From a virus: 41,147 bases of DNA. Under the pieces are notes generated by a model that made no database searches, had not been told where the DNA came from, and was given only the letters and a program-made list of their open reading frames with translations. The translations under genes were made by a program, and so were the position numbers. Of this stretch, positions 9,025-41,147 are shown one piece after another; positions within the stretch are counted from its first letter, which is position 1, and each line of letters begins with the position of its first letter. The stretch lies in the IMG/VR virus record IMGVR_UViG_3300046533_000321, positions 1 through 41,147 of that record. The stretch is one strand, 5' to 3'.

Positions 9025-9027
9025 GGC

Positions 9028-24876: not shown

Positions 24877-25267
24877 CGAGCGCGGACTTCAGCTTGTCGG
24901 TCTTCTGCGACTCGGTCGCCAGGATCTTCTGCAGGTCGGCCTGGACCTTGTCGATCATGTGGGAGCGGACATCGTTCGTGTCCACCGTCCCCGCCTGACG
25001 AAGGATGTCGATGGCCTCTCTGACCATCGAGAGCGGGTCGCTGCTGGTGTCGTCGGCGGGAGCGTCGGAGGCTGACGCCTCTTCCCCTGCCATCGGCCCC
25101 TGAGCGGTGAGGTCTTGCGAGCCGCCTCCGCCGCCACCGGAGAGCGCCGCCATCAGCGCCGGGGGAAGCCCACCGCCGCCGCTCGGATCGGGAGGTCCGC
25201 CACCCATGCTCGGGTCAGGAGCGCCCGGAGGTGGTCCCATCTGTGTCGGATCCATCATCTGGCTCAC
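24869..25267 (-). CDS. Gly/Pro-rich protein with acidic helical tail, 132 aa
   Basis: Starts at a GTG with GAGGAG six bases upstream. The first 50 residues are Met/Pro/Gly-rich and disordered. Residues about 80-130 are helical (MVREAIDILRQAGTVDTNDV). It lies between terminase and portal. Low-complexity linkers of this kind occur in portal-associated or head proteins, but no family was recognised. Confidence 0.6.
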   Translation of the reverse strand: MSQMMDPTQMGPPPGAPDPSMGGGPPDPSGGGGLPPALMAALSGGGGGGSQDLTAQGPMAGEEASASDAPADDTSSDPLSMVREAIDILRQAGTVDTNDVRSHMIDKVQADLQKILATESQKTDKLKSALGG

Positions 25268-25320
25268 GGTCTGCTCCTCAGGTTGAGATCAGCCTGATCG
25301 TAGGGAAAGAGCCAGACGGC

Positions 25321-26940
25321 TCACTCCCACTGGTAGGTCGCACGATACTTCGTTCGCCGCTTCTTGACCCGCCTGCGCGAGTCGTGGGCGTGGTGGCCGT
25401 AGATCCGGTAAAGCTCAAGCGCCAGGCAGAGCGCCATCACGCGGTCGTCGTTCGCGCCGTCGGCGGCTCGCGGCGAGGGGTTCACGTCGCGGCGGACGAA
25501 GGTCTTGCATTCGAGGATCAGGGCCTCGGGCATGTGGGGCAGCGTCTTCTCGCGGATCCACTGCTCGGCCTGGTTGATGATCTGCGGCCTCGTCTTGGTT
25601 GTGATCGGGAAGCCGTAGGTGATGTGCTGCTTGAAGTCGGGCCGATCCTCGATCCGGTGGCGGTAGAGCTTCGGGTAGGGCGGACGGCCTTTCCGCCCAT
25701 CCCGAAGGCTGAGGACGACAGGCTCGCCGTAGCCGCCGCCCATCTCGGGCGCGATCCGGGCCGTGTTGAACATCCGGCCCAGGAAGTGGGCCTGCTCGGC
25801 GACGAGGTCGGGGTCGATCCTGGCGTGGAACTCGGCGGCGATGTTGCCGTTGGTGAGGTCGATCACGTACATGCAGGAGTAGTCGGCCCCGCGGCCCGTC
25901 GCGACATCGACCGAGATCGCGTAGTCGCGCCCCGGCACCGGGTGGTCGTAGAGGTGGATCCAGCCGTCCTTGCGCCGGGTCACCTTCGCCCTCTTGCCGT
26001 CCTCGTCGACCATGAACTGGAAGCGGAACTCGGGCTTGCGCGTCTTCTGCGCGTACCAGGAGAGCGCCTCGGAGTCGAACCAGCAGCCTGCCGTGCCGAG
26101 GAAGGCGTCGGCGGGAGTGAGCGGGTACTGCTCGGCCCGGTCGAACTCGGGCAGCGCCTTGGCGATCCGCTCGTACCACTTCTCGTCGCGATTGGGATGG
26201 AGGTTCCAGGGTAGGAAGATCGTGTGGACCCCCCGGTCATCCGCGTTCATCCAGAGGTCGTAGAAGGTGCCGCCGATCCCGTTCGCGGTCGAGACGATGA
26301 TGATCTGACCGCCGTCGGCGATGACGGGGATGAAGGCCTTCCATCCCTCCTCGGCGTAGGCGTGACGGGCATGCTCGTCGAGGATGACGAGGGTGGCGAC
26401 CTGCCCATGTCCGGCCTTCGGGGTCGAGGGCATCGCGATCAGGGAAGAGATCTGTCCACTTGGGTGCTTCAACTCAATCCGAGTCGATGGCCTCCCTTTC
26501 TGCGGTCGTATTACCTCGACCTCGAACCGGAGATGCTCGGGCAGGGACTCGAACAGATCCCAGGCCCGACCGATCAGGACTGAGGCCTCCGTCTCGTTGA
26601 TCGAGACTGCGAGCGCGTTCGTGCCCGGCGTCGTCAGCACCTTCCAGAGCGCGTAGCCGATAGCCATCCATGAGATCCCCAGCTGCCGCGCCTTCAGGGC
26701 GAGCGTGATCTGGTTCATCCGGAAGTCGTCGAGCACGTCCCCCTGCCAGGCCCAGCCCGACTCCTCACTGAAGTCGAACGAGAAGACCTCGCCCGTCCTC
26801 GCGTCGGTCGCCGAGGCGTGTTGGAGCAGGAACTGGGGAGCGGCGAGAGCGGCGGTGCGCTCCTTGTCCATCTGCTCGAACCGGGTCTTCGCGATCTGGA
26901 AGGCTTCGCGCTGCTCCTGATCGAGTTCGACCGTCGTCAC
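25321..26940 (-). CDS. Terminase large subunit, 539 aa
   Basis: The packaging ATPase and nuclease. Walker A is KARQLGIS (residues 83-90), Walker B is LVILDEH with D188 and E189, and the coupling motif is IIIVSTANG. The RNase H-like nuclease carries D345 in YAISVDVATGRGADYS and the Asp pair 498-499 in NDDRVMAL. The annotated GTG lies right beside a 7-bp hairpin and has no clear ribosome site, so leaderless or hairpin-controlled translation is possible. No small terminase gene is evident beside it. Confidence 0.93.
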   Translation of the reverse strand: MTTVELDQEQREAFQIAKTRFEQMDKERTAALAAPQFLLQHASATDARTGEVFSFDFSEESGWAWQGDVLDDFRMNQITLALKARQLGISWMAIGYALWKVLTTPGTNALAVSINETEASVLIGRAWDLFESLPEHLRFEVEVIRPQKGRPSTRIELKHPSGQISSLIAMPSTPKAGHGQVATLVILDEHARHAYAEEGWKAFIPVIADGGQIIIVSTANGIGGTFYDLWMNADDRGVHTIFLPWNLHPNRDEKWYERIAKALPEFDRAEQYPLTPADAFLGTAGCWFDSEALSWYAQKTRKPEFRFQFMVDEDGKRAKVTRRKDGWIHLYDHPVPGRDYAISVDVATGRGADYSCMYVIDLTNGNIAAEFHARIDPDLVAEQAHFLGRMFNTARIAPEMGGGYGEPVVLSLRDGRKGRPPYPKLYRHRIEDRPDFKQHITYGFPITTKTRPQIINQAEQWIREKTLPHMPEALILECKTFVRRDVNPSPRAADGANDDRVMALCLALELYRIYGHHAHDSRRRVKKRRTKYRATYQWE

Positions 26941-26956
26941 GGCTAGTAGACTAGCC
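26941..26956. repeat. Inverted repeat abutting the terminase start
   Basis: Arms GGCTAGT and ACTAGCC with a two-base loop directly precede the GTG start of the terminase gene, where a ribosome site would be expected. It could be an operator or a translational switch in this 133-bp divergent promoter region. No convincing -35/-10 pair could be assigned there. Confidence 0.5.
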
Positions 26957-27073
26957 CCTTACCCACACAGACGTAGAGCCAGGGTCCTTCTTTTAAAGGT
27001 CCCGCCGTTGCCCACGAACTGGTGCCTCTTTAGGAAGTCCCTGGCCCTCGTCCGACATATCGGAGGTGACCCG

Positions 27074-27451
27074 ATGAGGCGCATTCTACTCGCGCTCGCA
27101 ATACTCGCCGTGCTTGTGTTCAGCAGCATCGCCACGGCGGACAACTACGGCACGACGAGGTCCCAGTACGCGAAGTCGAAGGCGATGGTGATGGCGACCT
27201 TCGGCCCTCGCTACGGCCCGGTCATGGTCCGCTGCATGGACCGCGAGTCCGGCGGCAACCCGCATGCCTCGAACTGGGGCGACTCGAACGGCGGCTCCTT
27301 CGGCCTGCTGCAGCTGAACGGTGCCCACCGCTGGCGGTCCGAATCGATGGCACAGTTCCGTGCCAGAATGTGGAACCCAGTGACGCACCTTCAGGCCGCG
27401 AAGCGCCTGTTCGATTCCTCGGGCCTCGCGCCCTGGGGCGGAGGTTGTTGA
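27074..27451 (+). CDS. Secreted lysozyme/transglycosylase-like protein, 125 aa
   Basis: A signal peptide is evident: basic MRRI, hydrophobic core LLALAILAVLVFSSI, and cleavage near ATA-D. The mature part has MDRESGGNPHASNWG with catalytic-type E58, then GGSFGLLQLN and NPVTHLQAAKRLF, a small GH23-like transglycosylase fold. C54 and C125 could form a disulfide. GGAGGT precedes the ATG, partly covered by a small hairpin (TCCGA/TCGGA). It may aid lysis from outside the membrane. Confidence 0.78.
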   Translation: MRRILLALAILAVLVFSSIATADNYGTTRSQYAKSKAMVMATFGPRYGPVMVRCMDRESGGNPHASNWGDSNGGSFGLLQLNGAHRWRSESMAQFRARMWNPVTHLQAAKRLFDSSGLAPWGGGC

Positions 27452-27759
27452 TGACCGAGTTCGTGAAGAAGCCCATCGTGGTCGAGGCGTATCAGTGGAC
27501 GGGCGAGAACGAGGAGGAGATCCGCGCCTTCGCTGGACTTGCGATCCTCCACGCCGACGAGACGCATCTACTGATCGAGACGGCGACCGACGACGAGCCA
27601 TCGCAGGCGATGGTCTATCCCGGCGACTGGGTCGTCAAGGACGTGGTCGGCAGGTTCTACCCCTGCAAGGACGAGGTCTTCCGGGCGACCCACGAAGAGG
27701 TCAGTCCACCGAGCGAAGAAGACGCAGGAGCGTCTGCCACTCCTGAAGACCTGCCTTAA
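27451..27759 (+). CDS. Phage PGDW-motif protein, 102 aa
   Basis: Residues 1-85 match a common small phage protein: VVEAYQWTGEN near the start, then a beta region ending VYPGDWVVKDVVGRFYPCKD and VFRATHEEV. No activity is established for this family. The ATG overlaps the stop of the lysozyme gene (TGATG). The end overlaps the convergent gene by about 58 bases, and a GCCTTAAGGC palindrome covers the stop codon. Confidence 0.7.
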   Translation: MTEFVKKPIVVEAYQWTGENEEEIRAFAGLAILHADETHLLIETATDDEPSQAMVYPGDWVVKDVVGRFYPCKDEVFRATHEEVSPPSEEDAGASATPEDLP

Positions 27760-27985
27760 GGCGGTACGTCTCCCGCTGCGATGGAGTCGAGAGTCCTGGG
27801 GTGAGGGCGGCGAGGAGCGCGAATGCCGCCCTTGCCCCACCCCCGTTGTTGGGCATCACGACGAGGCCCTGGCCGACGAGCGCCCCGGCCTGGTTGTTGT
27901 TCAGGTTGACCCCATCCTTCCGTGAGAACGGGGCGTAGGCCCCGACCTGCGCGTCGGTCGGATTCAGGACCGTGAAGAGCGGCAT
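27701..27985 (-). CDS. Small protein of unknown function, 94 aa
   Basis: The N-terminal half resembles a beta-structured structural protein (FTVLNPTDAQVGAYAPFSRK), and the C-terminus is helical. It is encoded convergently to the PGDW gene with substantial overlap. Its start shares one base with the end of the previous gene in the leftward operon. No family was recognised. Confidence 0.6.
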   Translation of the reverse strand: MPLFTVLNPTDAQVGAYAPFSRKDGVNLNNNQAGALVGQGLVVMPNNGGGARAAFALLAALTPGLSTPSQRETYRLKAGLQEWQTLLRLLRSVD

Positions 27986-28212
27986 TACGTCACCGGGAGG
28001 ATCAAGTCACGGTCGCCGTGCTTGAAGACCCAGTGGAACTGGCAGAGGTTCTCCGCCGAGACATCGACCCCGTTCACCGTCAGGAGCGACTTGTAGCCGC
28101 AGGGGTTGTTCTGGATCGCGTCGTTGAACGGGTTCGGCTGCGCCGAGGGGGTGAGGAAGCCCGGCATCGAGACGGTCGCCCTCGTCCCGCGAGCGGGGGC
28201 CGCGCAGGGCAT
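27985..28212 (-). CDS. Small protein of unknown function, 75 aa
   Basis: The N-terminus is Pro/Thr-rich, with CGYKSLLTVNGVDV and LCQFHWVFKHGDRDLILPV following. It contains three cysteines without a clear metal motif. The flanking genes abut it by one base on both sides, supporting its reality. Function unknown. Confidence 0.6.
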   Translation of the reverse strand: MPCAAPARGTRATVSMPGFLTPSAQPNPFNDAIQNNPCGYKSLLTVNGVDVSAENLCQFHWVFKHGDRDLILPVT

Positions 28213-28448
28213 CAGGCCTTGACCTCACCCACGGGCTTGGGCTTCGGATCCGCTGGCCTCTTCGGCGCGGGAGCCTTGCGCTGCTCGGGAGGCGTGTAGT
28301 CCTCGATCCGGATCAGCTGCTCGCCGTGGCCGAAGGCCTGGATGAAGTGGAGCGAGCAGTACTCGCCGCCGTCGGGGCCGATCCAGCGAGCCTCGGAGGG
28401 ATCGCCGAGCGCAGCCTGGCGCTCGACGCAGACCGGGCAGGGACTCAT
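28212..28448 (-). CDS. Small zinc-binding protein, 78 aa
   Basis: Starts with MSPCPVCVERQ and later has GGEYCSLHFI, a CxxC...CxxH arrangement that could bind one zinc. The C-terminus is Lys/Pro-rich. The ATG overlaps the upstream stop (ATGA). Function unknown. Confidence 0.65.
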   Translation of the reverse strand: MSPCPVCVERQAALGDPSEARWIGPDGGEYCSLHFIQAFGHGEQLIRIEDYTPPEQRKAPAPKRPADPKPKPVGEVKA

Positions 28449-28837
28449 GTCACACCCAGCTTCGCGTTCCCGGCCAGGGTGTTCGACACCTGGACGGTGC
28501 AGTTGTAGGTGCCCGGCGCAGCCCAGGTGACCGGGTCGAGTTCGTTCGTCGCGACAGCCGTCGAGGCGGGGGTGCCGGACTCGATGGTAATCGCTGCGAC
28601 CGGAACGGCTCCGCCGACGTTGAAGGCCAGCGTTCCCGTCTTGTTCGTCTCGATGGCGTAGATCCCCATCACCCCGGCGAGGCGCTGCAGCCCGGCCTGT
28701 GCTGCTCGACCGATCTGCTTCTTCGAGCCGCCCGGAGCGTTCGCGTTCGCCGAGAACCTGTTCAGCGCCGCCGTCCGCAGGTTCGCCGGGAGGCGGGTGA
28801 TCAGGCTGGCTTCCTTGGCTGCGGTCAGTGGTGGCAT
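28445..28837 (-). CDS. Probable small virion or tail-associated protein, 130 aa
   Basis: The N-terminal 55 residues are helical and basic. The C-terminal part is an Ig-like beta segment (GTLAFNVGGAVPVAAITIES, WAAPGTYNCTVQVSNTLAG). Such domains often decorate virions. It is coupled by overlaps to both neighbours. The virion role is inference only. Confidence 0.6.
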   Translation of the reverse strand: MPPLTAAKEASLITRLPANLRTAALNRFSANANAPGGSKKQIGRAAQAGLQRLAGVMGIYAIETNKTGTLAFNVGGAVPVAAITIESGTPASTAVATNELDPVTWAAPGTYNCTVQVSNTLAGNAKLGVT

Positions 28838-29055
28838 CAGTCCTCCTCTTGGTCGAATGGATGATCGCTGGAGGGTCGGACGAGATCGCTGTTCGCCCTG
28901 TCCTTCGCCAGATACCGCTCCCGCATCTCATCGATGCCTTCGAGGCGCGACACCTTCTGCTGCAGCGTCCAGAGTCCGCGCAGGACAGCACCAACGGCGA
29001 TCACAAGGACCGCCGTGATGATGTCGTTGCCGTTTCCACCGAAGAACGCGAGCAT
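28837..29055 (-). CDS. Holin candidate, single membrane helix, 72 aa
   Basis: One hydrophobic helix near the start (IITAVLVIAVGAVLRGLW, residues about 12-30) is followed by a coiled-coil and a charged, acidic tail. Its place directly after the M23-like endolysin, in the same direction, suggests a holin or a membrane-anchored lysis helper. The ribosome site is weak. Confidence 0.55.
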   Translation of the reverse strand: MLAFFGGNGNDIITAVLVIAVGAVLRGLWTLQQKVSRLEGIDEMRERYLAKDRANSDLVRPSSDHPFDQEED

Positions 29056-29080
29056 CCGCCAAGGATGACCGCCGGGTCGG

Positions 29081-29854
29081 TCAGTGGTCTTGGAACTGCT
29101 TCCGGATCGTCGGGATCCCTGACACCGAGTAGTTCGAGCCGTGCTTCAACTCCTTGCCCTTGCCCCAGATGTCCTCGACGTTGACCCCGATGTGGCAGTG
29201 AGGCGTGTAGCCCGAGAACTGGCCCACCTTGCCGATCCCTGCTCCCTTACCGAGGACCTTGCCGACAGCTGGTGCCGAGACGAGGTGGCCGAACCAGTAC
29301 TTGATCCCGCTGACGCCCTTGGCGTAGCAGGCATCGCCGGGACTCGACGAGGAGTCCTTGTAGATCTCGATCTTCTCGGGCGCGGTCACCATCGTGCCGG
29401 GCGTCCAGACCGAGTCGGTGGCGGGGAACAAGGCGATCCCCGAAGTGGCGTGACTCAGCGCGAAGTCGAGCAGCGAGGCTCCGCCCTTCTCGACCGGGCC
29501 AAGGTCGGGGACCTTCTTGCCCTGATCGGAGGCGTACTCGGTCTGGACCTGATTGATGCAGGTCCCATCGAGCGCCTGCTCGCCAGCGTGGGCGAGGCCC
29601 TTCGGGATCACGGCAGCGCGGATCTTGTCGTAGCGTCCCTCGCCGTAGCCGTTCTTGCCAGGATCCCACTCGTCCAGCGCCCCCTCCAGCTTCTTGTTGA
29701 AGACGTTGTCCCACACGTCCGGCTCCCAGGGGATCTTGCCAAGCCGGGCCATCGCTCGCTTCAGCGCCAGGGCCGTGTTGCCCTTGTGCTTGCCGTCACC
29801 CTCGACCGAGTACGGCCCCGTGTAGGGGAAGTCAGCCTTCGAGATCGTCGCCAT
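29081..29854 (-). CDS. Endolysin: peptidoglycan-binding region plus M23-like peptidase, 257 aa
   Basis: Residues about 15-75 look like a peptidoglycan-binding domain (NTALALKRAMARLGKIP, ALDEWDPGKNGYG). Residues about 150-230 resemble an M23 endopeptidase: YWFGHL (H190), a turn GKVLGKGAGIGKVGQFSG, and HCHIGV (H219, H221) as zinc ligands. The first metal-binding His/Asp of M23 is not obvious, so activity is likely but not certain. It shares a TGATG junction with the preceding gene and is followed by the holin candidate. Confidence 0.75.
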   Translation of the reverse strand: MATISKADFPYTGPYSVEGDGKHKGNTALALKRAMARLGKIPWEPDVWDNVFNKKLEGALDEWDPGKNGYGEGRYDKIRAAVIPKGLAHAGEQALDGTCINQVQTEYASDQGKKVPDLGPVEKGGASLLDFALSHATSGIALFPATDSVWTPGTMVTAPEKIEIYKDSSSSPGDACYAKGVSGIKYWFGHLVSAPAVGKVLGKGAGIGKVGQFSGYTPHCHIGVNVEDIWGKGKELKHGSNYSVSGIPTIRKQFQDH

Positions 29855-33870: not shown

Positions 33871-34147
33871 CGAACAGCTGTGTGCCCCTGTAGGCCCCCC
33901 GCTGAATCGTGCTGCTGGTGCCCCCTGAATCGCTGCTGCGCTGCGTCGTGCGGTAGGAAGCCCCGCGAGAGAGGACCCGAGCACACGCGAGCTTTCGGGG
34001 GACCGCCCCCCGCCGCCCTAGCTCCTAGCTAGGGCGGCTGCGCCCGTGTGCCAGAACAAGCCTTTGGCTTGTGCTGGGCGAGGCATGCTGCCCTTGTCCC
34101 TTGTCACTGCTTGCAGTGAGTGGTGCTCGGGAGGGTGCTGCCTAGAG
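33871..34147. other. Non-coding gap with strong hairpins
   Basis: No gene is supported here. It holds two imperfect copies of a CCCCCTGAATCG-CTGCTG block near 33900 and 33930. A 12-bp hairpin at 34012-34038 (arm GCCGCCCTAGCT, loop CCT) follows, then 7-bp hairpins at 34056-34072 and 34104-34119. The first could end transcription from both sides. It marks the left edge of the hairpin-rich zone. Confidence 0.6.
34012..34038. terminator. Strong 12-bp hairpin, possible bidirectional terminator
   Basis: Arms GCCGCCCTAGCT and AGCTAGGGCGGC around CCT. It lies between a rightward operon end (33870) and the end of a leftward gene (34148), the right place for a shared terminator. It lacks a T-run, so activity is inferred. 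Confidence 0.55.
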
Positions 34148-34858
34148 TCAGCCCGTAGGGCTGAAGATGGCACGAAGCTGCTTGAACGTCGCCTCATGGG
34201 CACCTTCGGTGGTCAGCGTCAGCGAAGCCTCCTCCGTCGCGAGCGGGTCGACAGCGTCGACCAGCGCCAGAACGGCGCGAGTGGCCTGCAAGCCTTCGGC
34301 TTCGAGAGCATTTCCCACCGCCACCACGGCAAGCTCTTCTGCCCGTAGGGCAACCACAGCCTTCAGAGCGGCTCGGGGGGATAGACGAGGTTTCACCTCG
34401 GGATCAGCGATCAGGGCAAGGGTGTCGTCGGAGAGCGCTGTGTGAGCGTGGAAGACGCAGACCTCCATCCCGCGCATCTTCCCGACCTTGCACCTCACTC
34501 CGTGAACCGTCAAAGCCTTGCACCGCTTCTCCTCGGGGATCACAAGGCTTACAGCCTTGAGTCGGTGAACGTTCCCCTCGTCGTCTTCGAGCACCTCAGG
34601 CTGCTTTGCAGCCTGTCTCCTGGCTCTGGCGGCGTTCCCGTTTCGGCGGTCCACCTCTCGCACCGGATCGGCGCGTTCTTCCCGCTGATCCTGCGCCAAG
34701 AGGGCTGGTTCACTGGTCAACCACTCCGAAGGAGTGACCTCGTCGGTGACGGTCGCAAGGGGTTCAGCTTCGCTGGGAGAATCGGCAGCTGTTTCGGTGC
34801 GCGTCAGGGCTTCGCCCTGTGCGTCATCCAGGTACTCGCGGGTCGCGGCGTCCATCAT
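34148..34858 (-). CDS. Zinc-motif protein, isolated leftward gene, 236 aa
   Basis: The N-terminal 110 residues are acidic and low in structure. A single C-x9-C-x10-C-x2-H motif (C113, C123, C134, H137 in RCKALTVHGVRC and MEVCVFHA) resembles a small zinc fold found in phage and mobile-element proteins. The C-terminal 90 residues are helical and Ala/Leu/Val-rich. It is the only leftward gene inside the hairpin zone and carries at least nine hairpins. A weak ribosome site precedes two adjacent ATGs. Function unknown. Confidence 0.65.
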   Translation of the reverse strand: MMDAATREYLDDAQGEALTRTETAADSPSEAEPLATVTDEVTPSEWLTSEPALLAQDQREERADPVREVDRRNGNAARARRQAAKQPEVLEDDEGNVHRLKAVSLVIPEEKRCKALTVHGVRCKVGKMRGMEVCVFHAHTALSDDTLALIADPEVKPRLSPRAALKAVVALRAEELAVVAVGNALEAEGLQATRAVLALVDAVDPLATEEASLTLTTEGAHEATFKQLRAIFSPTG

Positions 34859-35138
34859 CCGATCCTACATGCGATCACGTCCCTTCGCTACCCGCAAACC
34901 CGCATGTACTGGTCGTTTCACGACCTTCGTGCGCGTGTTCGGATCTTCGATCCGGCCTGTTTGGGCTTTGTTCGGATGTCTTGACAGTCCGGATCTGGTC
35001 CAGCTAGGTTGCGAATCGGCACCCAGCTCCCTCGCCGTTCTTTCGGTGGCAGTCGGGGGGTGCTAGTCGGCACGTTGACCGAGGTGCATCGGCAGTCGGT
35101 GCACCGCAGTGAACGTCACCAACACACGGAGGTTCAGC
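34859..35138. other. Intergenic regulatory region with promoter and leader
   Basis: This gap separates the leftward zinc-motif gene from the rightward operon. It contains 6-bp TTC-loop hairpins at 34911-34925 and 34940-34954, promoter P1, and a leader with GCACCC...GGGTGC and GGTGCA...TGCACC inverted repeats before the start-associated element. No gene is supported. Confidence 0.6.
34981..35010 (+). promoter_or_regulatory. Rightward promoter P1 (TTGACA, 18 bp, TAGGTT)
   Basis: A -35 TTGACA and a -10 TAGGTT with 18-base spacing lie 129 bases before the first gene of the operon. About 40 bases around it are nearly repeated at 38850 (shared GTTCGGA upstream and CTGGTCCAGCTA before the -10). A TANNNT -10 suits an actinobacterial housekeeping sigma. 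The transcript would have a ~120-base leader with possible hairpins. Confidence 0.7.
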
Positions 35139-35375
35139 GTGGAGAGCTTTGCTCCCTCACGGAACGAACGCAGTCAGCAGGTTCGAGGCAAGGAACGGCC
35201 CTACTCTCGTAGAGAGTCGGAATGGGAGAACACCGGGGCATTCACGGGGACTGGTCGACCGAAGGTCGTCGGCGTCTCGGAGCAGGTCGCTCTCGTCACT
35301 CGGCGGAACGCTGCAGCAGCCCGAAGGGCTGAGAGGCAGTGGCTCCGGACACTCCCGAAGGGAACGAGGATCTAA
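35139..35375 (+). CDS. Small basic protein, first gene after promoter P1, 78 aa
   Basis: The GTG start is placed by the element CACACGGAGGTTC just upstream, shared with other starts in this region. The protein is basic and largely helical at the C-terminus (ALVTRRNAAAARRAERQWLR), suggesting nucleic-acid binding. No family was recognised. Hairpins at 35213 and 35317 lie in its coding region. The stop shares one base with the next ATG. Confidence 0.65.
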   Translation: MESFAPSRNERSQQVRGKERPYSRRESEWENTGAFTGTGRPKVVGVSEQVALVTRRNAAAARRAERQWLRTLPKGTRI

Positions 35376-35614
35376 TGCACGGCCTGATCCTGAGAGCGTG
35401 GCGTGACGGATCCGTCCACGCCGAGGTGCCGATTGCCGCTTTCCACACCGAAGGTGTGCTCGGCGTCCACCTCGACCATCGCGAAGACGGGCACCGCTTC
35501 AAGACCGCTTGCGGTCTTGGTTGGTTCGGCATCGGCTCCTCGTCGGGCTACGGACACCCTGAAAGGGTGTCTTGCGAGGCTTGCCGGGCAATCCTGCTCG
35601 GCGAATCACAGTAG
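35375..35614 (+). CDS. Small Cys/His protein, 79 aa
   Basis: A beta-rich N-terminus (HGLILRAWRDGSVHAEVP) leads to HRFKTACGLGWFG and HPERVSCEACRAILLG. The CG...CEAC arrangement resembles small actinophage zinc proteins (xxCG...VxCxxC). Four hairpins (8-9 bp stems at 35500, 35553 and 35602) fall within it, the last spanning the stop codon. Function unknown. Confidence 0.65.
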   Translation: MHGLILRAWRDGSVHAEVPIAAFHTEGVLGVHLDHREDGHRFKTACGLGWFGIGSSSGYGHPERVSCEACRAILLGESQ

Positions 35615-35684
35615 TGATTCGGTCTGGCTCGTCACGGAGCCTGGCCGAATCCCTTCGGTGAAGGGATTGACACGGAGGTACGTC
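35615..35684 (+). repeat. Intercistronic start-associated module, copy 1
   Basis: Contains a first stem (GGCTC/GAGCC), a CTGGCCG segment, a second 9-bp stem AATCCCTTC with GGT loop, and GACACGGAGGTACGTC leading into the ATG. The same order recurs before several downstream genes. Confidence 0.7.
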
Positions 35685-36170
35685 ATGGCAGGTTGGAGCG
35701 ATGCTCTGCAGGATGAAGAGCGGGAGATGTGGGACGACGTAGTCGCCGCCGAGAAGGTGACAAGCGACGAAGTCGCTTCGGAGTACGCTCGGGTCGAAGC
35801 CGAGTACACCGACTACGTCGGTGGCGGCACGGTGACCAGCACCTACGGTGCTGTCGAGGTCAACACGATCACGGAAGAGCAGAAGCTCTTCCAGCAGTCG
35901 GCGAACGAGGTCGTAGACCTCGCCGACAAGCGGCTCGCGAGGATCACAAGGCTTCGCCTTGTCACCGACCGAGACTTCCCCATGTGGGACCTGAGCTACT
36001 GCTACGGGGTCCTGAAGGACGGCGCGGCAGTCAGGGTTCGGTTTCCTCAGAGCCAGTTCACGAAGTCAGATCTCAACCGAGATCTGATCGACATGTGCAA
36101 GGCCGAGGGAGTGTTCGGCAAGGGTCTTGGGATCTTCGATCCCGAGGTGATCAGCAAGCTGTACGGATAG
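35685..36170 (+). CDS. Protein of unknown function, 161 aa
   Basis: Acidic and helical in the first 60 residues (DALQDEEREMWDDVVAAEKV). A mixed alpha/beta section follows (RLRLVTDRDFPMWDLSYCYG, AAVRVRFPQSQFTKSDL). The ATG follows GACACGGAGGTACGTC. At least seven hairpins of 6-9 bp lie in its coding sequence. No family was recognised, and it is conserved only in context as the partner of the next gene. Confidence 0.7.
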   Translation: MAGWSDALQDEEREMWDDVVAAEKVTSDEVASEYARVEAEYTDYVGGGTVTSTYGAVEVNTITEEQKLFQQSANEVVDLADKRLARITRLRLVTDRDFPMWDLSYCYGVLKDGAAVRVRFPQSQFTKSDLNRDLIDMCKAEGVFGKGLGIFDPEVISKLYG

Positions 36171-36236
36171 GGTCGATGGAGCCTCTCTGAGGCTCTGTCC
36201 ATCCGTTCCGTCGGAACGGTGTACACGGAGGTAAGC
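36171..36236 (+). repeat. Intercistronic start-associated module, copy 2
   Basis: First stem GAGCCTC/GAGGCTC with TCT loop, a TGTCCAT linker, a second stem CCGTTCC/GGAACGG with GTC loop, then TACACGGAGGTAAGC before the ATG. Compared with copies 4 and 5, the second stem has an A-T pair replaced by G-C on both sides, a compensatory change. Confidence 0.7.
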
Positions 36237-37007
36237 ATGGACGCGATTCGCTTTCAGCGAATGGCCGAGGTGGCTGGCATCGAGTACGACCTCGAAGAGG
36301 TCTTCGGTGGCGAGATCCGTGGTCTACTGACCACGAACCAGAAGGTCGAGAAAGGCGAGAAGGAGGGATGGCTTACAGCCATCATGCACCTCGCTCCCGC
36401 CAAAGCCTCTGGCTTTCAGGTCTGCTCCTCGGCGACCAAGGGCTGCGAAGCAGCCTGCCTCAACACGGCAGGCCGCGGCGGCATCTTCAAGGTCGGCGAA
36501 GCCGACAACAGCATCCAGCAGGCTCGCCGAAGGCGAACCGCCTGGTACTTCGCTCGAAGGAACGAGTTCCTTCGTCGGCTTGACATCGAGATCGGCACCC
36601 ATGTGGGCCGAGCCATGCGGAAGGGCTTCAGCCCTGCCGTGCGGCTCAACGGGACCAGCGATCTTCGCTGGGAGTCGATCAAGCTGGACGGAGCAACGCT
36701 CTTCGAGCGTTGGCCGAACGTGGTCTTCTACGACTACACGAAGCACCTGCGGGATGTCTCTGACATCCCGAACTACTCGCTGACCTTCTCCCTGGCGGAG
36801 AGCAACGAGAGTCGTGCAGAGCTTGCTCTGCAGATGGGCCTCAACGTCGCTGTGGTCTTCCACAGCGTCCCCGAGGAGTTCTGGGGCTACCCCGTCTTCG
36901 ACGGGGACAAGAGCGACCTGCGCTTCCTTGACCCCAAGGGGGTCATCGTCGGCCTCAAGGCGAAGGGCAAGGCCCGGCAGGATCGTACGAGCGGCTTCGT
37001 TCGCTGA
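36237..37007 (+). CDS. GP88-family phage protein, 256 aa
   Basis: Matches the phage gene-product-88 family: HLAPAKASGF, then the Cys cluster C63/C70/C74 in QVCSSATKGCEAACLNTAGR, RRTAWYFARRNEFLRRL, AVRLNGTSDLRWE (near 135-146), VVFYDYTKH, NYSLTFSLAE, NVAVVFHSV, DGDKSDLRFLDPKGVIVGLK and SGFV at the end. The family is common in actinobacteriophages and its biochemical role is unknown. The Cys cluster suggests metal or Fe-S binding. Some 15 hairpins lie in 771 bases, many with the loop exactly on one codon (TTC, GAA, TCT, AAG). Confidence 0.85.
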   Translation: MDAIRFQRMAEVAGIEYDLEEVFGGEIRGLLTTNQKVEKGEKEGWLTAIMHLAPAKASGFQVCSSATKGCEAACLNTAGRGGIFKVGEADNSIQQARRRRTAWYFARRNEFLRRLDIEIGTHVGRAMRKGFSPAVRLNGTSDLRWESIKLDGATLFERWPNVVFYDYTKHLRDVSDIPNYSLTFSLAESNESRAELALQMGLNVAVVFHSVPEEFWGYPVFDGDKSDLRFLDPKGVIVGLKAKGKARQDRTSGFVR

Positions 37008-37075
37008 CATCACGGTGGGGACCTCTGGTCCCTGCCGCCTTGTCACCGACAGGGAGAACACGGAGGTCATCGAAG
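37008..37075 (+). repeat. Intercistronic start-associated module, copy 3 (divergent)
   Basis: First stem GGGACC/GGTCCC with TCT loop, then CTGCCG, a weak second stem (TGTC/GACA), and AACACGGAGGTC nine bases before the ATG. Confidence 0.6.
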
Positions 37076-37504
37076 ATGACGAACTACATGCGCCTCGACA
37101 CCGAAGAGCGGTGTCACTGCGGTGCTCACAAGCAGGGCAGTGACCACTGCCCGATCTGCGGCTGCGAGGAGTTCGAGCAGCGGTGTGACCACATCCACAT
37201 AGTGGATCCGACCTACTTGGTCATCCACGGCAACCACACCTCGACGAAGACGGCGGTCGACTACGTCGCTCACATCGTCTACGGCAACCCTCGGATCGAG
37301 GCGGTTACCGTAGGTAGCAAGTTCGTGGCGCTGGTCGAGTTCCCTGGTTCCCAGGGCACCCAGGCTCAGTACACGTTCGAGCGGATGGGGAGCTTCCCGC
37401 ACGGAGCCTGCATGGCGATGGACAAGGCTATCGCCTTGAGGGAGTTCGGCAGCTGGATCTACCACTACGCACCCGGCACCGTCGTTGGAAACGACGCGGT
37501 CTAG
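37076..37504 (+). CDS. Zinc-ribbon protein of unknown function, 142 aa
   Basis: The N-terminus has CHCGAHKQGSDHCPICGC, two Cys pairs that should bind zinc. The remainder is a beta-rich domain (EAVTVGSKFVALVEFPGSQG, AQYTFERMGSF) with a helix (ACMAMDKAIALREFG). GGAGG lies nine bases before the ATG. No family was recognised. Confidence 0.7.
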   Translation: MTNYMRLDTEERCHCGAHKQGSDHCPICGCEEFEQRCDHIHIVDPTYLVIHGNHTSTKTAVDYVAHIVYGNPRIEAVTVGSKFVALVEFPGSQGTQAQYTFERMGSFPHGACMAMDKAIALREFGSWIYHYAPGTVVGNDAV

Positions 37505-37576
37505 CGGACAGGGTCGGTGAGGCTCCACGGAGCCTTGCCGTTCCATTCCGGTGGAATGGATGACACGGAGGTACGC
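37505..37576 (+). repeat. Intercistronic start-associated module, copy 4
   Basis: CGGACAGGGTCGGTG, first stem AGGCTCC/GGAGCCT with a two-base loop, TTGCCGT, second stem TCCATTCC/GGAATGGA with GGT loop, then GACACGGAGGTACGC and the ATG. Almost identical to copy 5 except that the arms of the first stem are exchanged. Confidence 0.75.
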
Positions 37577-37843
37577 ATGACCGAGTACATCACCAATGCC
37601 GACTACCGTCGGCAGAAGAGCGGCCTGACCAGGGCGATCAACTCTGGCGATCCGCTGAAGGTTCTCGACAACGTCGAGAAGACGCTCAAGGAGTGGAGCG
37701 GCAAGGCGTGGCCCGATGCCTGGGCACGTTGGCGGAACGCCGTCGAGGATGCACGGTGGACTTACGTCCACAGCGAGGAGTGGGGTCTGCCGATGCCCGA
37801 GACTCTGTCTCGGTTCGACAACCTGCTTCGGGACCTCGGATGA
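37577..37843 (+). CDS. Small helical protein, 88 aa
   Basis: Charged and helical throughout (NADYRRQKSGLTRAINSGDP, NVEKTLKEWSGKAWPDAWAR). It is a compact single-domain protein with many Trp residues. The ATG follows GACACGGAGGTACGC. The stop overlaps the next start (ATGA). No family was recognised. Confidence 0.65.
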   Translation: MTEYITNADYRRQKSGLTRAINSGDPLKVLDNVEKTLKEWSGKAWPDAWARWRNAVEDARWTYVHSEEWGLPMPETLSRFDNLLRDLG

Positions 37844-37959
37844 AGTTCATCCGTTGGTACTTCGAGGTCAACGCTGAACGTCCCCTTACGGGGACGTGGA
37901 TCTCGAAGACGATCCTGCTGGCCGTCATCGTCTGGGCGATCTTTCAGATCGCCACCTGA
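37840..37959 (+). CDS. Membrane microprotein, 39 aa
   Basis: Starts in an ATGA overlap with the preceding gene. A basic/aromatic N-terminus (MKFIRWYFEV) is followed by one membrane helix at the C-terminus (SKTILLAVIVWAIFQIA). It is translationally coupled and likely inserted in the host membrane. Function unknown. Confidence 0.6.
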   Translation: MKFIRWYFEVNAERPLTGTWISKTILLAVIVWAIFQIAT

Positions 37960-38031
37960 TCGGACAGGGTCGGTGGAGCCTTCGAGGCTCTGCCGTTCCA
38001 TTCCGGTGGAATGGAAGACACGGAGGTGAGC
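37960..38031 (+). repeat. Intercistronic start-associated module, copy 5
   Basis: CGGACAGGGTCGGTG, first stem GAGCCT/AGGCTC with TCG loop, TGCCG, second stem TTCCATTCC/GGAATGGAA with GGT loop, then GACACGGAGGTGAGC and the ATG. Confidence 0.75.
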
Positions 38032-38415
38032 ATGAGCAACTTCGCCAAAGGCGAGAGGGTCTTCATCATGGACGCTCGCGGTGGGCACCACGGCACCGTC
38101 CAGGGCGTCCTGCGAAGCGGACTGATCTCAGTCCGCTGGGACTCTGGGATGTTCGAGCGGTGCGAGGCCGAGGAGCTTCAGTTCTCCACCACGGTCGAAG
38201 ACCGTGAGGCAGAGCAGTTGACTCCGACGGGCCACGTCATCGGGGCGACCTACTGGTCGTCCTACTGGGGCGGCACCTACAAGGTCGTCGGCACCGTAGG
38301 TGACTTCGGCGTCGTCGTGGAGTGTGTCCTCCCTGGGGGAGGAGCGCACCAAACGGTCGGAGAGCAGTGGTCACACGCCACGACGCTCGACCGCAAGGAT
38401 GTCCGGATCGGCTGA
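38032..38415 (+). CDS. Beta-rich protein, possible tandem SH3/KOW-like, 127 aa
   Basis: Two similar beta units are visible: FAKGERVFIMDARGGHHGTV with GLISVRWDSG, and YWSSYWGGTYKVVGTVGDFG with VVVECVLPGG. This suggests a pair of small barrel domains of SH3 or KOW type, which often bind RNA or proteins. A 10-bp hairpin (AGCGGACTGA arm) lies at 38116-38137. The domain idea is tentative. Confidence 0.6.
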   Translation: MSNFAKGERVFIMDARGGHHGTVQGVLRSGLISVRWDSGMFERCEAEELQFSTTVEDREAEQLTPTGHVIGATYWSSYWGGTYKVVGTVGDFGVVVECVLPGGGAHQTVGEQWSHATTLDRKDVRIG

Positions 38416-38473
38416 CGTAACGGTGGGGCCTTCAGGCCCTGCCGTCGCATCACCCAACCACGGAGGAGGAACG
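38416..38473 (+). repeat. Intercistronic start-associated module, copy 6 (shortened)
   Basis: First stem GGGCCT/AGGCCC with a two-base loop, then CTGCCG and a degenerate second part, ending CCACGGAGGAGGAACG before the ATG. Confidence 0.6.
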
Positions 38474-38794
38474 ATGAACGACGGCACCGTCGAAGACGGT
38501 CGCATCGTGGACTGCCGCATCTGCGGCGTCACGACGCACATGATCGACCCCGAGGAGATGAACGAGGTCTGCGATGCTTGCAGCATCGGGGGTTGGGGAC
38601 ACGTCAAGAAGGCGTACCTCCTTCGGAGAGGCGACGTGATCTTCAGGGGAGGTCGGCAGTCGGTGATCCTCCAAGAGGAGGATTGGGGCAAGCGGCGGAT
38701 GCTGCAGGTCCGCGACGACGACGGGAAGGTGGGCGACCTGCTCCTGCGCTCGACCGACCTCGTCCACGTACACATGGACAGGCAGGAGCCGTAG
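38474..38794 (+). CDS. Zinc-ribbon protein, 106 aa
   Basis: CRICGVTTHMIDPEEMNEVCDACS forms a CxxC...CxxC zinc ribbon at residues about 15-36. A basic beta segment (AYLLRRGDVIFRGGRQSVIL) and an acidic end follow. Hairpins at 38486, 38572 and 38666. Family unknown, likely nucleic-acid binding. Confidence 0.65.
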   Translation: MNDGTVEDGRIVDCRICGVTTHMIDPEEMNEVCDACSIGGWGHVKKAYLLRRGDVIFRGGRQSVILQEEDWGKRRMLQVRDDDGKVGDLLLRSTDLVHVHMDRQEP

Positions 38795-38849
38795 GCCACA
38801 TGCGCCTTCGGAGCTTTGCTCCGGGCTGTTCGGAGAATGTTCGGACTGC

Positions 38850-38879
38850 TTGACAGATCGAATCTGGTCCAGCTACGTT
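38850..38879 (+). promoter_or_regulatory. Rightward promoter P2 (TTGACA, 18 bp, TACGTT)
   Basis: TTGACA and TACGTT are 18 bases apart, with the same flanks as P1 (GTTCGGA upstream and CTGGTCCAGCTA within the spacer and -10). The predicted start is near 38886. It drives the 183-residue gene and those after it. Confidence 0.7.
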
Positions 38880-38939
38880 GGTGTCCGGCACCGAGATCCC
38901 ACCCTGTGTTTCAGGGGCTGCGGTCGGTGTCGGACACCA
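38879..38939 (+). promoter_or_regulatory. Structured 5' leader / operator downstream of P2
   Basis: Sixteen-base arms (TGGTGTCCGGCACCGA and TCGGTGTCGGACACCA) pair fully with one G-T wobble. A CCCTG/CAGGG stem lies at the top. The left arm touches the -10, so the dyad could be a repressor site in DNA or an mRNA-end hairpin. No ligand pattern of a known riboswitch was recognised. Confidence 0.65.
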
Positions 38940-39024
38940 CGGGAAGCGGTGTGCTGCGGAGGGTGCCCCATCTGGGACGCCGCCCGGAGCAATGTCGCTC
39001 CCACAACACGGAGGTATCACCAGC

Positions 39025-39576
39025 ATGAAGGCCAACGTCACGGTCGAGTTCTCGCTCGGCACGACCATCGAGCCTGAGGTCAACGACTACCACTGGGACA
39101 GTGGCTCGGTCACGGACTTCAAGGGCGAGTCGTACTTCTCCGCCGAGAGCTTCACCGTCCAGGGAGGCTCGCTCACGTTCACGGTCGAAGACGACTCGTT
39201 CACGGACGAGGACGACGTGAAGGAGTGGGTCCGCTCCGAGGTCATCAACGATGACAACGAGGTCGAGGACTCGAACGGGATCACCTGGGTGGTCGAGGAA
39301 CTCGACATCGAGGTCGAGATCGAGGAGGCTCCGCTTCCGACCCTCGAAGAGGCGATCCAGACGCTCGGCACGTTCGCCGAGGAGCGTCGGAACGACGAGG
39401 AGTGGGGCGAGATCGCTCGCGCCGCCATCGTCGTCCTCGACACCCTCGGGACCGTCGAGGCCCGTGTCTCCAGCCTGGAGGCGCGGCTCGAAGAGCAGTC
39501 GCAGCGGATCGAGGGCCTCGTCGCTCTCGCCGCGGCTCCTGCCAACCCGGACCCCGAAGGGGATCACCCCTTCTAG
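39025..39576 (+). CDS. Acidic protein with C-terminal coiled coil, 183 aa
   Basis: Residues 1-105 are a very acidic beta-rich domain (VTDFKGESYFSAESFTVQGG, DDSFTDEDDVKEWVRSEVI). Residues about 125-170 are a coiled coil (LGTVEARVSSLEARLEEQSQ). It is probably oligomeric. CAACACGGAGGTATC lies upstream of the ATG. No family was recognised. Hairpins are few here, unlike its neighbours. Confidence 0.65.
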   Translation: MKANVTVEFSLGTTIEPEVNDYHWDSGSVTDFKGESYFSAESFTVQGGSLTFTVEDDSFTDEDDVKEWVRSEVINDDNEVEDSNGITWVVEELDIEVEIEEAPLPTLEEAIQTLGTFAEERRNDEEWGEIARAAIVVLDTLGTVEARVSSLEARLEEQSQRIEGLVALAAAPANPDPEGDHPF

Positions 39577-39662
39577 CCGTCTGACAGCGGGTGGGGGAGC
39601 TTGCTCCCCTCGCCCGGTGCAGATGTCACGCACCGCATCGAACATCACGGAGGTGATGACGC
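39577..39662 (+). repeat. Intercistronic start-associated module, copy 7
   Basis: First stem GGGGAGC/GCTCCCC with TT loop, a CGCCC linker, second stem CGGTGC/GCACCG with a nine-base loop, then ATCACGGAGGTGATGACGC leading to the ATG. Confidence 0.6.
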
Positions 39663-40091
39663 ATGGCGCTCACATGGAACGTGAAGGGAATCGCGAACAG
39701 CGACGAGGTCTGCTGGTTCACGGCGGAGGTCGATGAGCCGAACCACTTCATCGAGAAGGGGAAGCAGTACCTGTCGCCGCTCACGAACGCCTTCATCTGG
39801 CACAGCCTCTCGACGGGGATCGGAACGATCACCGAGGCGAACGCTGGAGAGGTGTACGCACGGATCTCGCTGCTCGAACAGGTCTACGGAGCTTCGCTCC
39901 TGTCGAGTGACGGCCCGGTGCCGATCACGATGGACGATGTGACTCGTCACATCGGGCTGGTCACGAACGCCTCGTTCAAGGACGAGTCCCGCGCCAGCTT
40001 CCTGAAGCGGCACATCACGTACAAGCTCGACGACTCGGTCCGCAACTACAAGCGGCACGTCGAGCGGCAGGCCGCAGAAGCCACAGCCTAG
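39663..40091 (+). CDS. Protein of unknown function, 142 aa
   Basis: Alpha/beta protein beginning MALTWNVKGIANSDEVCWF, with NAFIWHSLSTGIGTITEANA and DDVTRHIGLVTNASFKDESR in the middle and a basic C-terminus (SVRNYKRHVERQAAEA). It follows TCACGGAGGTGATG. A 9-bp hairpin (CGATGTGAC arm) lies at 39935-39954. No family was recognised. Confidence 0.65.
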   Translation: MALTWNVKGIANSDEVCWFTAEVDEPNHFIEKGKQYLSPLTNAFIWHSLSTGIGTITEANAGEVYARISLLEQVYGASLLSSDGPVPITMDDVTRHIGLVTNASFKDESRASFLKRHITYKLDDSVRNYKRHVERQAAEATA

Positions 40092-40109
40092 CGTCCGGCA
40101 GTGGGTGTA

Positions 40110-40136
40110 GACCAGCGTAGCTCTGCTATACTGGTC
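40110..40136. promoter_or_regulatory. Dyad overlapping a TATACT -10 (candidate operator/promoter)
   Basis: GACCAG and CTGGTC flank an inner TAGC/GCTA pair, making a 27-base dyad. A consensus-like TATACT at 40127-40132 lies in its right arm. No good -35 is present, so the promoter may be activator-dependent or weak. Repression by the downstream HTH protein is plausible. Confidence 0.5.
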
Positions 40137-40185
40137 CATGCCCCGTGCGGATGGTCGGCACGGAAACGACGACGAGAGGGGAGGA

Positions 40186-40407
40186 ATGCCAACACGCCCA
40201 CTCAGCACGACCCGCTTTGCGGAGGAGGTCCAGGGGAGGCTCATCGACACGCATGAGACGCTCGCCCTGGTCGGCTTGCGGAGCAAGCAGTCGCTCCACA
40301 ACCGCATCGCAGCAGGGAAGCTCCCGAAGCCAGTGATCACGCTGGAGCGGAGCTACGCATTCTGGGACCGCGTAGCGGTCCTCAAGGCAGCATCGACACG
40401 GAGGTAA
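40186..40407 (+). CDS. AlpA/excisionase-type helix-turn-helix protein, 73 aa
   Basis: DTHETLALVGLRSKQSLHNR, then IAAGKLPKPVITLERSYAFW and RVAVLKA is the MerR/AlpA-type motif that docks a short HTH followed by a wing. The chosen ATG has GGGGAGG just upstream. An ATG 16 codons earlier (five bases after the -10) would need leaderless translation and is less likely. A local regulator, perhaps of its own promoter. Confidence 0.75.
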   Translation: MPTRPLSTTRFAEEVQGRLIDTHETLALVGLRSKQSLHNRIAAGKLPKPVITLERSYAFWDRVAVLKAASTRR

Positions 40408-40414
40408 GACCAGC

Positions 40415-41147
40415 ATGACTCGCACAGTCGAGAACCTCGACGCGCTGATGTCGAGGATCGTGGCGGAAGACCGCCGCAAGTACGACGTGATCGCAGACAC
40501 CCGCTCGATGAACGTGGGCGTCCGGATCAACGAGGAGGGCAAGGGCGGCACCGTCGAGCTTGACCTCGACACGCCGGGCCAGGAGCTTCGCTCCTTCCGG
40601 CTGACCGACCACATGCAGGGCCAGATCTCGACCGATCTGGGCATCCCGAAGAAGTACTTCGACCGGATGCGTCAGGACGCCCCGTCTCTGTTCGAGACGA
40701 ACGTCCGCCACTGGATGATGAACGAGCCGAAGGCTCGCATGATCCGTGGACTCACGAACGGCTCCGAGATGATGACGGGCCGGGCCTGGATGTCCGACAA
40801 GTTCCGCCGCCTCGACAACATCGAGGTCGCTCGGATGCTCCTGCCCGAGTTCGACAAGCTCGGCACCGAGGTGCAGTTCCACCAGGCCGCGGTCACGGAG
40901 CAGAAGCTCCACATCCGCGCCCTGTTCCCCGCCCTGGAGCGGGACATCAAGGCGGTCGGTGACACCGTCCGCTGGGGCATCGCCATCGAGAACAGCGAGA
41001 TCGGCGCTGGCTCGTTGAAGCTGTCCGGCTTCGTGATGGTGCTGATCTGCACGAACGGCATGGTCACGTCGAAGGTGCTGAACGTGCGCCACGTCGGCAA
41101 GCGTGAGGGCGAAGGCGTCCTCTCGAACGAGGCCCTCCGGGCCGACG
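40415..41147 (+). CDS. DUF932-family phage/plasmid-like protein (partial, runs off the window)
   Basis: The ATG follows GACACGGAGGTAAGACC. The translated part (244 residues) matches the DUF932 phage/plasmid-like family: an N-terminal FRLTDHMQGQISTDLGIPKK-type segment, GRAWMSDKFRRLDNIEVARM in the middle, and SEIGAGSLKLSGFVMVLICT, NGMVTSKVLNVRHVGKREGE towards the edge. The family is widespread on phages and plasmids, and its activity is unknown. It continues beyond the window. Confidence 0.8.
   Translation, partial: MTRTVENLDALMSRIVAEDRRKYDVIADTRSMNVGVRINEEGKGGTVELDLDTPGQELRSFRLTDHMQGQISTDLGIPKKYFDRMRQDAPSLFETNVRHWMMNEPKARMIRGLTNGSEMMTGRAWMSDKFRRLDNIEVARMLLPEFDKLGTEVQFHQAAVTEQKLHIRALFPALERDIKAVGDTVRWGIAIENSEIGAGSLKLSGFVMVLICTNGMVTSKVLNVRHVGKREGEGVLSNEALRAD

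Follow-up and report, generated by a model that had tools for sequence, protein, structure and literature searches.

Pervasive structure in coding RNA is known from positive-strand RNA viruses as genome-scale ordered RNA structure (GORS), which is under selection and has been proposed to be linked to host response and persistence (PMC3695492, PMC6563262). GORS is the closest known idea to the feature described here, a zone of perfect mini-hairpins in the IMG/VR virus record IMGVR_UViG_3300046533_000321, all 41,147 bp of which were analyzed and are referred to below as the window. As in GORS, the zone appears to be selected for pervasive structure in coding RNA, beyond any single regulatory element, and its coding folding energy lies below that of shuffled sequences. 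Unlike GORS, it is found in a double-stranded DNA (dsDNA) virus: structural genes at the left of the record (terminase, portal, major capsid and tail, by profile hits) identify a tailed phage. It is also graded and limited to the first ~8 kb of early transcription units, with structural genes at background rather than genome-wide structure, and it consists of discrete, covarying perfect mini-hairpins with loops of 2-4 nt.

Hairpins of several other kinds resemble the zone in part. Phage T4 mRNA carries stable CUUCGG intercistronic hairpins on the sense strand; the lambda nut/boxB and HK022 put RNA antitermination elements are one or two defined sites of conserved sequence; the promoters of the giant virion RNA polymerase (vRNAP) of phage N4 are few, sequence-specific DNA hairpins; and bypassing elements (byps) and mobile palindromes place many small hairpins in coding sequence. 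The zone shares with T4 the UUCG hairpins on the sense strand of phage mRNA, but holds dozens of hairpins, mostly triloops, within genes and regularly spaced. Like nut and put, its hairpins lie in divergent early phage transcripts, but there are tens of them with unrelated stems, no boxA-like motif and no sequence conserved in the hairpin or next to it. Stems of 5-7 bp, 3-nt loops and an early-region location recall the N4 promoters, yet the zone's stems are unrelated, lie mostly inside genes and have neither a flanking motif nor conserved bases; none of the window proteins searched stood out as a vRNAP, and the 50 kb of N4 examined contains at most 9 tri- or tetraloop hairpins per 3 kb. The N4 early region (L162, EF056009, 500-3500) has a mild tri/tetraloop excess of its own, 9 per 3 kb against 1.5 expected. 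From byps and mobile palindromes the zone differs in that its stems are unrelated and are translated within conserved proteins, with no insertions. The initial annotation of this sequence knew of no matching named system; we likewise found none, and searches of open-access literature (subscription papers being outside our scope) turned up no description of one. We rate the zone as a new kind of pattern, since its anatomy matches that of no known kind, while a broader class, "large-scale mRNA structure", would take it in.

Between positions 34012 and 40595 we found 83 perfect inverted repeats (stem of at least 6 bp, loop of 2-4 nt), against a mean of 5.7 and a maximum of 11 in 200 dinucleotide shuffles, a larger excess than the ~60 against ~5 by chance counted originally. 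Triloops numbered 57-58 (2.4 expected), and loops of 2 nt (14 vs. 1.4) and 4 nt (12 vs. 2.9) were enriched as well, with no comparable excess at 0-1 or 5-15 nt. GNA or its complement TNC accounted for 36 of 57 triloops on recounting, in keeping with the 33 of 50 first reported. In positions 1-33900 of the window triloop hairpins were at background (16 vs. 12.6), as was hairpin density in the structural regions of ~60 relatives. The densest 3 kb of the window held 43 tri- and tetraloop hairpins, compared to 9 or fewer in ten other phages taken whole or in part (lambda, T7, N4, phiC31, Achebe, KellEzio, Roos, Pam4, CM1 and ctYwJ313). Stem sequences are mutually unrelated, as had been claimed, which rules out a dispersed palindromic repeat family; the sole repeated element is one intergenic module. 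No motif was found in the flanking sequence, and information is limited to loop class and closing pair. A search for intrinsic terminators (a GC stem followed by a U-tract) found 0 where 3.5 were expected by chance, so a terminator reading was rejected. Known RNA families and tRNAs were also rejected after scans, Rfam returning only mir-2060, below its gathering score.

The excess persisted against a codon control, in which synonymous codons were shuffled within each gene (300 shuffles, yielding ~1-2 hairpins per gene). None of the 300 reached the observed counts in the GP88 gene (17) or the gene at 35403-36170 (13), nor, in the relative G006, those in the glutamine amidotransferase (GATase) gene (17) and the amidoligase gene (21); late genes (portal, capsid) had the same counts as their shuffles. 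Sense-strand folding-energy z-scores were ~-2.4 to -3.5 in the zone and -0.55 in tail genes. Since a perfect stem is symmetric, sense and antisense z-scores hardly differed, which makes this comparison uninformative as a strand test.

Comparison with relatives points to selection on pairing. Pairs in which both bases had changed and Watson-Crick pairing was kept numbered 15, 12, 23, 17, 14 and so on per aligned relative, where 1.5-3 were expected, and over 17 comparisons compensatory pairs reached ~2-9 times expectation (e.g., ccaggctcTTCGgagcctgg vs. cctgccccTTCGggggcagg). In GP88 pair counts exceeded both shuffles and slid controls, and many helices were invariant even at synonymous sites. 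Loops at given sites changed freely between relatives. Where a homologue had a broken hairpin, the differences generally fell in both arms and were often wobble-spaced, with only 21 of 120 one-armed. This pattern fits point mutation with selection rather than one-step template switching, which was rejected as the source of the hairpins. Thus the shuffled controls, the density in structural genes and the fate of arm pairing in relatives, all proposed at the outset as ways to refute the hairpin excess, failed to do so.

Strand signatures, counted over pooled related genomes with cores de-duplicated in some counts, distinguish RNA from DNA. Among 8-bp stems with one mismatch (one genome per clade), the sense strand had 41 G-U pairs against 5.5 expected, compared to 10 A-C pairs against 5.0, and in the leftward unit it was the minus strand that showed this bias (8 vs. 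1). UNCG tetraloops occurred 24 times in sense and never in antisense; per available core, C(TTCG)G was used in 16/124 cases and C(CGAA)G in 1/124. Triloops were closed by C-G in 475 of 648 cases, and the range of loop types across the hairpins (GNA, UNY, UNCG) was limited. Among other closing pairs UUC loops outnumbered GAA loops by 25 to 5 (Fisher p 0.0002). Since UUC tolerates many closing pairs and GAA almost only C-G, the GNA/TNC symmetry, which holds for C-G closing pairs and not for the others, looks like two overlapping preferences. Sense-strand differences outside hairpins showed no C-T excess (565 C-T vs. 682 A-G), so mutation bias does not produce the G-U excess, and transition bias was rejected as its source. 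The initial annotation had correctly placed hairpins in genes on both strands, and considered a purely mRNA-level role unlikely on that account. This objection finds no support: the leftward gene is simply the opposite half of a divergent, presumably early region of transcription, and the G-U signature moves with it to its own strand. These signatures indicate that the hairpins work as RNA, in the sense strand of the early transcripts, and a DNA reading is disfavoured; very probably, they have been selected at the transcript level, in two divergent units of one dsDNA phage lineage.

The boundaries of the zone coincide with these two divergent transcription units, with a sharp left edge and a rightward decay. 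From gene content and layout we infer that both units are early. Position 34012, the left limit first proposed, is a true edge, but the right limit of 40595 is not, as density decays ~8-9 kb into the operon, past the window. Pooled over 11 genomes, hairpin density is at background until the end of the leftward gene, 11/kb inside that gene, 17.5-18.3/kb over the initial 2 kb of the rightward operon, and back at background after ~9 kb; it is highest in the operon's first 3-4 kb and has faded by 8-9 kb. One hairpin occurs per ~45 nt, with a centre-to-centre spacing peak at 30-60 nt and a depletion below 30 nt relative to hard-core random placement, and the median hairpin-free gap is 25-36 nt in zone-positive genomes vs. 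377 nt in the hairpin-free relative G004. Hairpins avoid positions -20 to +10 around start codons, which may stem partly from fixed ribosome-binding site (RBS) and start sequence, and peak at -50 to -30 and +20 to +40; density also peaks just after stop codons. In-gene loops fall in codon phases 0:1:2 in a ratio of 175:26:61, the least-used phase presumably being that with the least synonymous freedom.

Relatives gathered by scans with GP88, capsid and phrog_1362 proteins allowed positive and negative genomes to be compared. The zone is present in 11 uncultivated soil-phage contigs (the window, G000, and G001-G003, G006-G009, G025, G027 and G029), which come from eight metagenomes in addition to the one that yielded the window. 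It is missing in other relatives. Two of these, G004 and G005, have capsid proteins as near the window's as those of some positives. An amidoligase-GATase pair opens the G004 operon with 0 hairpins in the amidoligase and 2 in the GATase gene, against 12-21 per gene in five positives, while in the window's group the dense genes are GP88 and its neighbours instead. Hairpins thus follow operon position, not gene. This phage-borne pair stands at the front of the early operon at L081 11663-14222 (G006) and G004 8105-10428. The weak zone in G016 (24500-29200), whose hairpins have TAC and TTCG loops, is a possible intermediate or decaying case. Three proteins were considered and rejected as the cause of the zone. 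The association with phrog_1362 (DUF932-like) was at first perfect, but the family is present in the hairpin-free L123, L124, L126, L127, L132 and L134; the Zn protein family A5 occurs in all 10 sampled positives, yet also in many hairpin-free contigs; and motifs similar to that of the leftward finger protein occur in zone-negative contigs. The A5 family (G001 35428-36081 and homologues) is fast-evolving, ~180-200 aa long, with TPxALAKHW and CxxC..CPxC motifs, and is perhaps a helicase loader or replisome organiser. No capsid relatives, sought as a clue to the host, were found in bacterial genomes, and no DNA similar to the window was found in named phages.

As for function, the hairpins together could form a structural shield on the first messages made after DNA entry, which would thereby keep few long single-stranded stretches. 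Such a shield might guard against single-strand-specific attack, whether by host RNase, RNA-targeting defence or the phage's own nuclease, and would be needed until early proteins remove the threat; the density gradient would then reflect time since entry or transcript abundance. The independence of genes and stems, the regular spacing, the absence from late genes and sister phages and the fade with promoter distance all fit a temporary threat to single-stranded early RNA. The nuclease shield suggested in the initial annotation thereby survives for RNA, though not for DNA. Shielding as the function is possible but rather doubtful; the combination of selected RNA hairpins and shielding of first transcripts, which we favour as the best explanation of the whole, falls only slightly short of an even balance. 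Several observations weigh against it. C(GAA)G is used as often as C(TTC)G (69/366 and 70/365), as a DNA model also predicts; most stems are perfect, with G-U pairs rarer than in typical structured RNAs; and generic RNA stability does not explain the limit to loops of 2-4 nt. Furthermore, ribosomes would unfold hairpins in translated regions, leaving a shield to work only between ribosomes or before translation, and all 11 positives may share one common origin.

Hairpins on early transcripts could also serve the polymerase, blocking backtracking, R-loops or Rho loading behind it over a long early operon, or acting jointly as put/nut-like antitermination sites. The zone starts from the divergent promoter region and thins out downstream, its hairpins are denser directly after stops and ahead of RBSs, and its median gaps fall short of the open stretch of RNA, roughly 60-80 nt, that Rho is known to need. 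Nonetheless, 3-8 hairpin-free gaps of more than 78 nt are left per 3 kb, the flanks lack boxA-like or other motifs, early GC skew is ordinary (0.037 in G004 vs. -0.007 to 0.086 in positives), and known systems manage with one or two put/nut sites; we regard such an elongation aid as unlikely. Equally improbable, in our view, is that the hairpins are sites for a structure-specific RNA-binding protein, encoded by the phage or its host, whose role is to coat early mRNA, to localise it or to repress its translation, or that they serve as decoys titrating a factor of the host. The prevalence of C-G closing, the few loop types and the spacing peak near 45 nt would suit a single protein, but the loop at a given site is free to change, and no candidate stands out, the Zn replication-like protein and phrog_1362 both being found in hairpin-free phages too.

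Readings that place the hairpins outside RNA fare worse. DNA hairpins or cruciforms, formed by one strand or by both, might be recognised in entry, replication, priming or recombination, much as the initial annotation envisaged for folded single strands. The equal use of C(GAA)G and C(TTC)G agrees with this, as do the stability of d(C-GNA-G), a known DNA triloop, and the putative replication-type Zn protein in 10/10 positives with the region sampled. However, the strand signatures track transcription and reverse where the gene does, UNCG loops lack the reverse-complement symmetry of strand usage, UUC accepts closing pairs that GAA does not, RBSs are avoided and the Zn family extends to many hairpin-free contigs, leaving a DNA-level function unsupported and highly improbable. 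Least probable of all is a functionless mutational by-product, in which quasi-palindromes are perfected again and again by template switching in the course of replication or transcription; a mutational process that perfects them had also been raised originally. Perfect stems, tiny loops and apparent transcription coupling are what it would produce, but substitutions occur in both arms, often with wobble periodicity and seldom in one arm only, sense C-T changes are not in excess outside hairpins, and RBS avoidance, regular spacing and the UNCG bias count against it.

Coordinates of the hairpins and of the surrounding genes are collected in Table 1. The two promoter-like elements are near-identical (TTGACA-N18-TANGTT) and have the spacer TCTGGTCCAGC in common. 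The repeated intergenic module, at 37504-37580 and 37961-38040 in the window, has the form GGACAGGGTCGGTGGAGCC..hairpin..TTCCATTCCGGTGGAATGG..ACACGGAGGT ahead of several small genes; it is also present in relatives and looks like a gene-cassette junction. Directly ahead of GP88 in L002 (9880-9985) lies a tRNA T-arm-like fragment, CCGGGGTTCGATTCCCCGG, uncalled by ARAGORN and Rfam, with similar text in L004. The phrog_1362 gene at the window's right end is DUF932-like by eye, with no Pfam hit.

Table 1. Features of the hairpin zone. Entries beginning with a length are perfect inverted repeats, given as stem length and loop.
Feature	Position	Strand	Remarks
Hairpin zone	34012..41147	.	runs past the window's right end; in relatives fades ~8-9 kb from the start of the rightward unit
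Leftward early transcription unit	33990..34870	-	single gene; stops at the zone's sharp left edge
Leftward gene, 236 aa	34148..34858	-	CxxxxxxGxxC..C..H finger-like motif, weak phrog_3678; 7 hairpins
Promoter-like element TTGACA-N18-TAGGTT	34981..35010	+	not called by generic consensus scan
Promoter-like element TTGACA-N18-TACGTT	38850..38879	+	second copy
Rightward early operon	35100..41147	+	transcript holds most hairpins
Gene, 255 aa	35403..36170	+	no assigned function; 13 hairpins vs. 0.95 in synonymous shuffles
GP88-family gene (PF17338), 262 aa	36219..37007	+	17 hairpins vs. 1.1 in synonymous shuffles
Gene, 154 aa	37040..37504	+	no assigned function; 6 hairpins
Gene, 134 aa	38011..38415	+	no assigned function; 3 hairpins
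Gene	39006..39576	+	no assigned function; 3-4 hairpins
phrog_1362 gene	40415..41147	+	cut by window end; 3 hairpins, low end of gradient
12 bp, CCT	34012..34038	-	zone's left edge; no T-run
7 bp, TTT	34056..34072	.	compensatory change in G003
7 bp, TT	34104..34119	.	
7 bp, GTA	34148..34164	-	
7 bp, AGC	34246..34262	-	
7 bp, TAC	34543..34559	-	
8 bp, TTT	34597..34615	-	compensatory change in G003
6 bp, TTC	34940..34954	.	compensatory change in G003
6 bp, GAA	35444..35458	+	compensatory change in G003
9 bp, TT	35500..35519	+	
8 bp, GAA	35553..35571	+	
8 bp, AGTA	35602..35621	+	
9 bp, GGT	35648..35668	+	
7 bp, GAA	35762..35778	+	
7 bp, TAC	35807..35823	+	
7 bp, TAC	35837..35853	+	
8 bp, AGAA	35873..35892	+	
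7 bp, GTA	35906..35922	+	compensatory change in G003
7 bp, TTC	35946..35962	+	
9 bp, AACC	36066..36087	+	
7 bp, TCT	36179..36195	+	intergenic
7 bp, GTC	36203..36219	+	intergenic
7 bp, TTC	36246..36262	+	helix 3; C-G/U-A switches in column pairs across phages
7 bp, TACT	36318..36335	+	helix 5; invariant in 4 phages
7 bp, TAC	36367..36383	+	helix 6; invariant in 4 phages
6 bp, GAA	36441..36455	+	helix 8; invariant in 4 phages
9 bp, GA	36555..36574	+	
7 bp, TCT	36655..36671	+	
8 bp, TTC	36694..36712	+	helix 12; compensated pair
9 bp, TCT	36750..36770	+	helix 13; invariant in 4 phages
8 bp, TT	36815..36832	+	
8 bp, TCTT	36848..36867	+	
7 bp, TTC	36890..36906	+	
7 bp, AAG	36929..36945	+	TCT in relatives; stem kept, loop replaced
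8 bp, AC	37135..37152	+	
7 bp, GGA	37480..37496	+	
7 bp, AC	37520..37535	+	in repeated intergenic module
8 bp, GGT	37542..37560	+	in repeated intergenic module
7 bp, TACC	37597..37614	+	
8 bp, AAC	37662..37680	+	
7 bp, TCT	37797..37813	+	
7 bp, AGT	37837..37853	+	
8 bp, TTAC	37878..37897	+	
8 bp, TTC	37935..37953	+	
6 bp, TCG	37976..37990	+	intergenic; two compensated pairs in G003
9 bp, GGT	37996..38016	+	intergenic
10 bp, TC	38116..38137	+	
7 bp, GAA	38190..38206	+	compensated in G003
7 bp, TGG	38327..38343	+	
7 bp, TGC	38572..38588	+	
7 bp, AAGA	38666..38683	+	
7 bp, ATCA	39556..39573	+	
7 bp, TT	39594..39609	+	
9 bp, TC	39935..39954	+	
7 bp, GTA	40365..40381	+	compensated in G001

We suggest, tentatively and somewhat on the doubtful side, that a regular array of hairpins that matter only as structure, placed over arbitrary genes, armours early mRNAs, graded by distance from the early promoter, and represents an undescribed strategy of DNA phages. 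Such armour would act at the RNA level, as a counter-defence or as a stability system, and would be encoded in synonymous sites and not in a protein. If this is true, a DNA phage can encode a collective, gene-independent trait of its first transcripts largely in synonymous sites, and early phage mRNA is under a strong, unrecognised pressure, whose source might be RNA-targeting immunity, an RNase, Rho or a nuclease of the phage. Natural controls for this idea are available in the gradient and in the sister phages that lack hairpins. Codon usage and conservation in such regions would, as a warning, reflect RNA structure.

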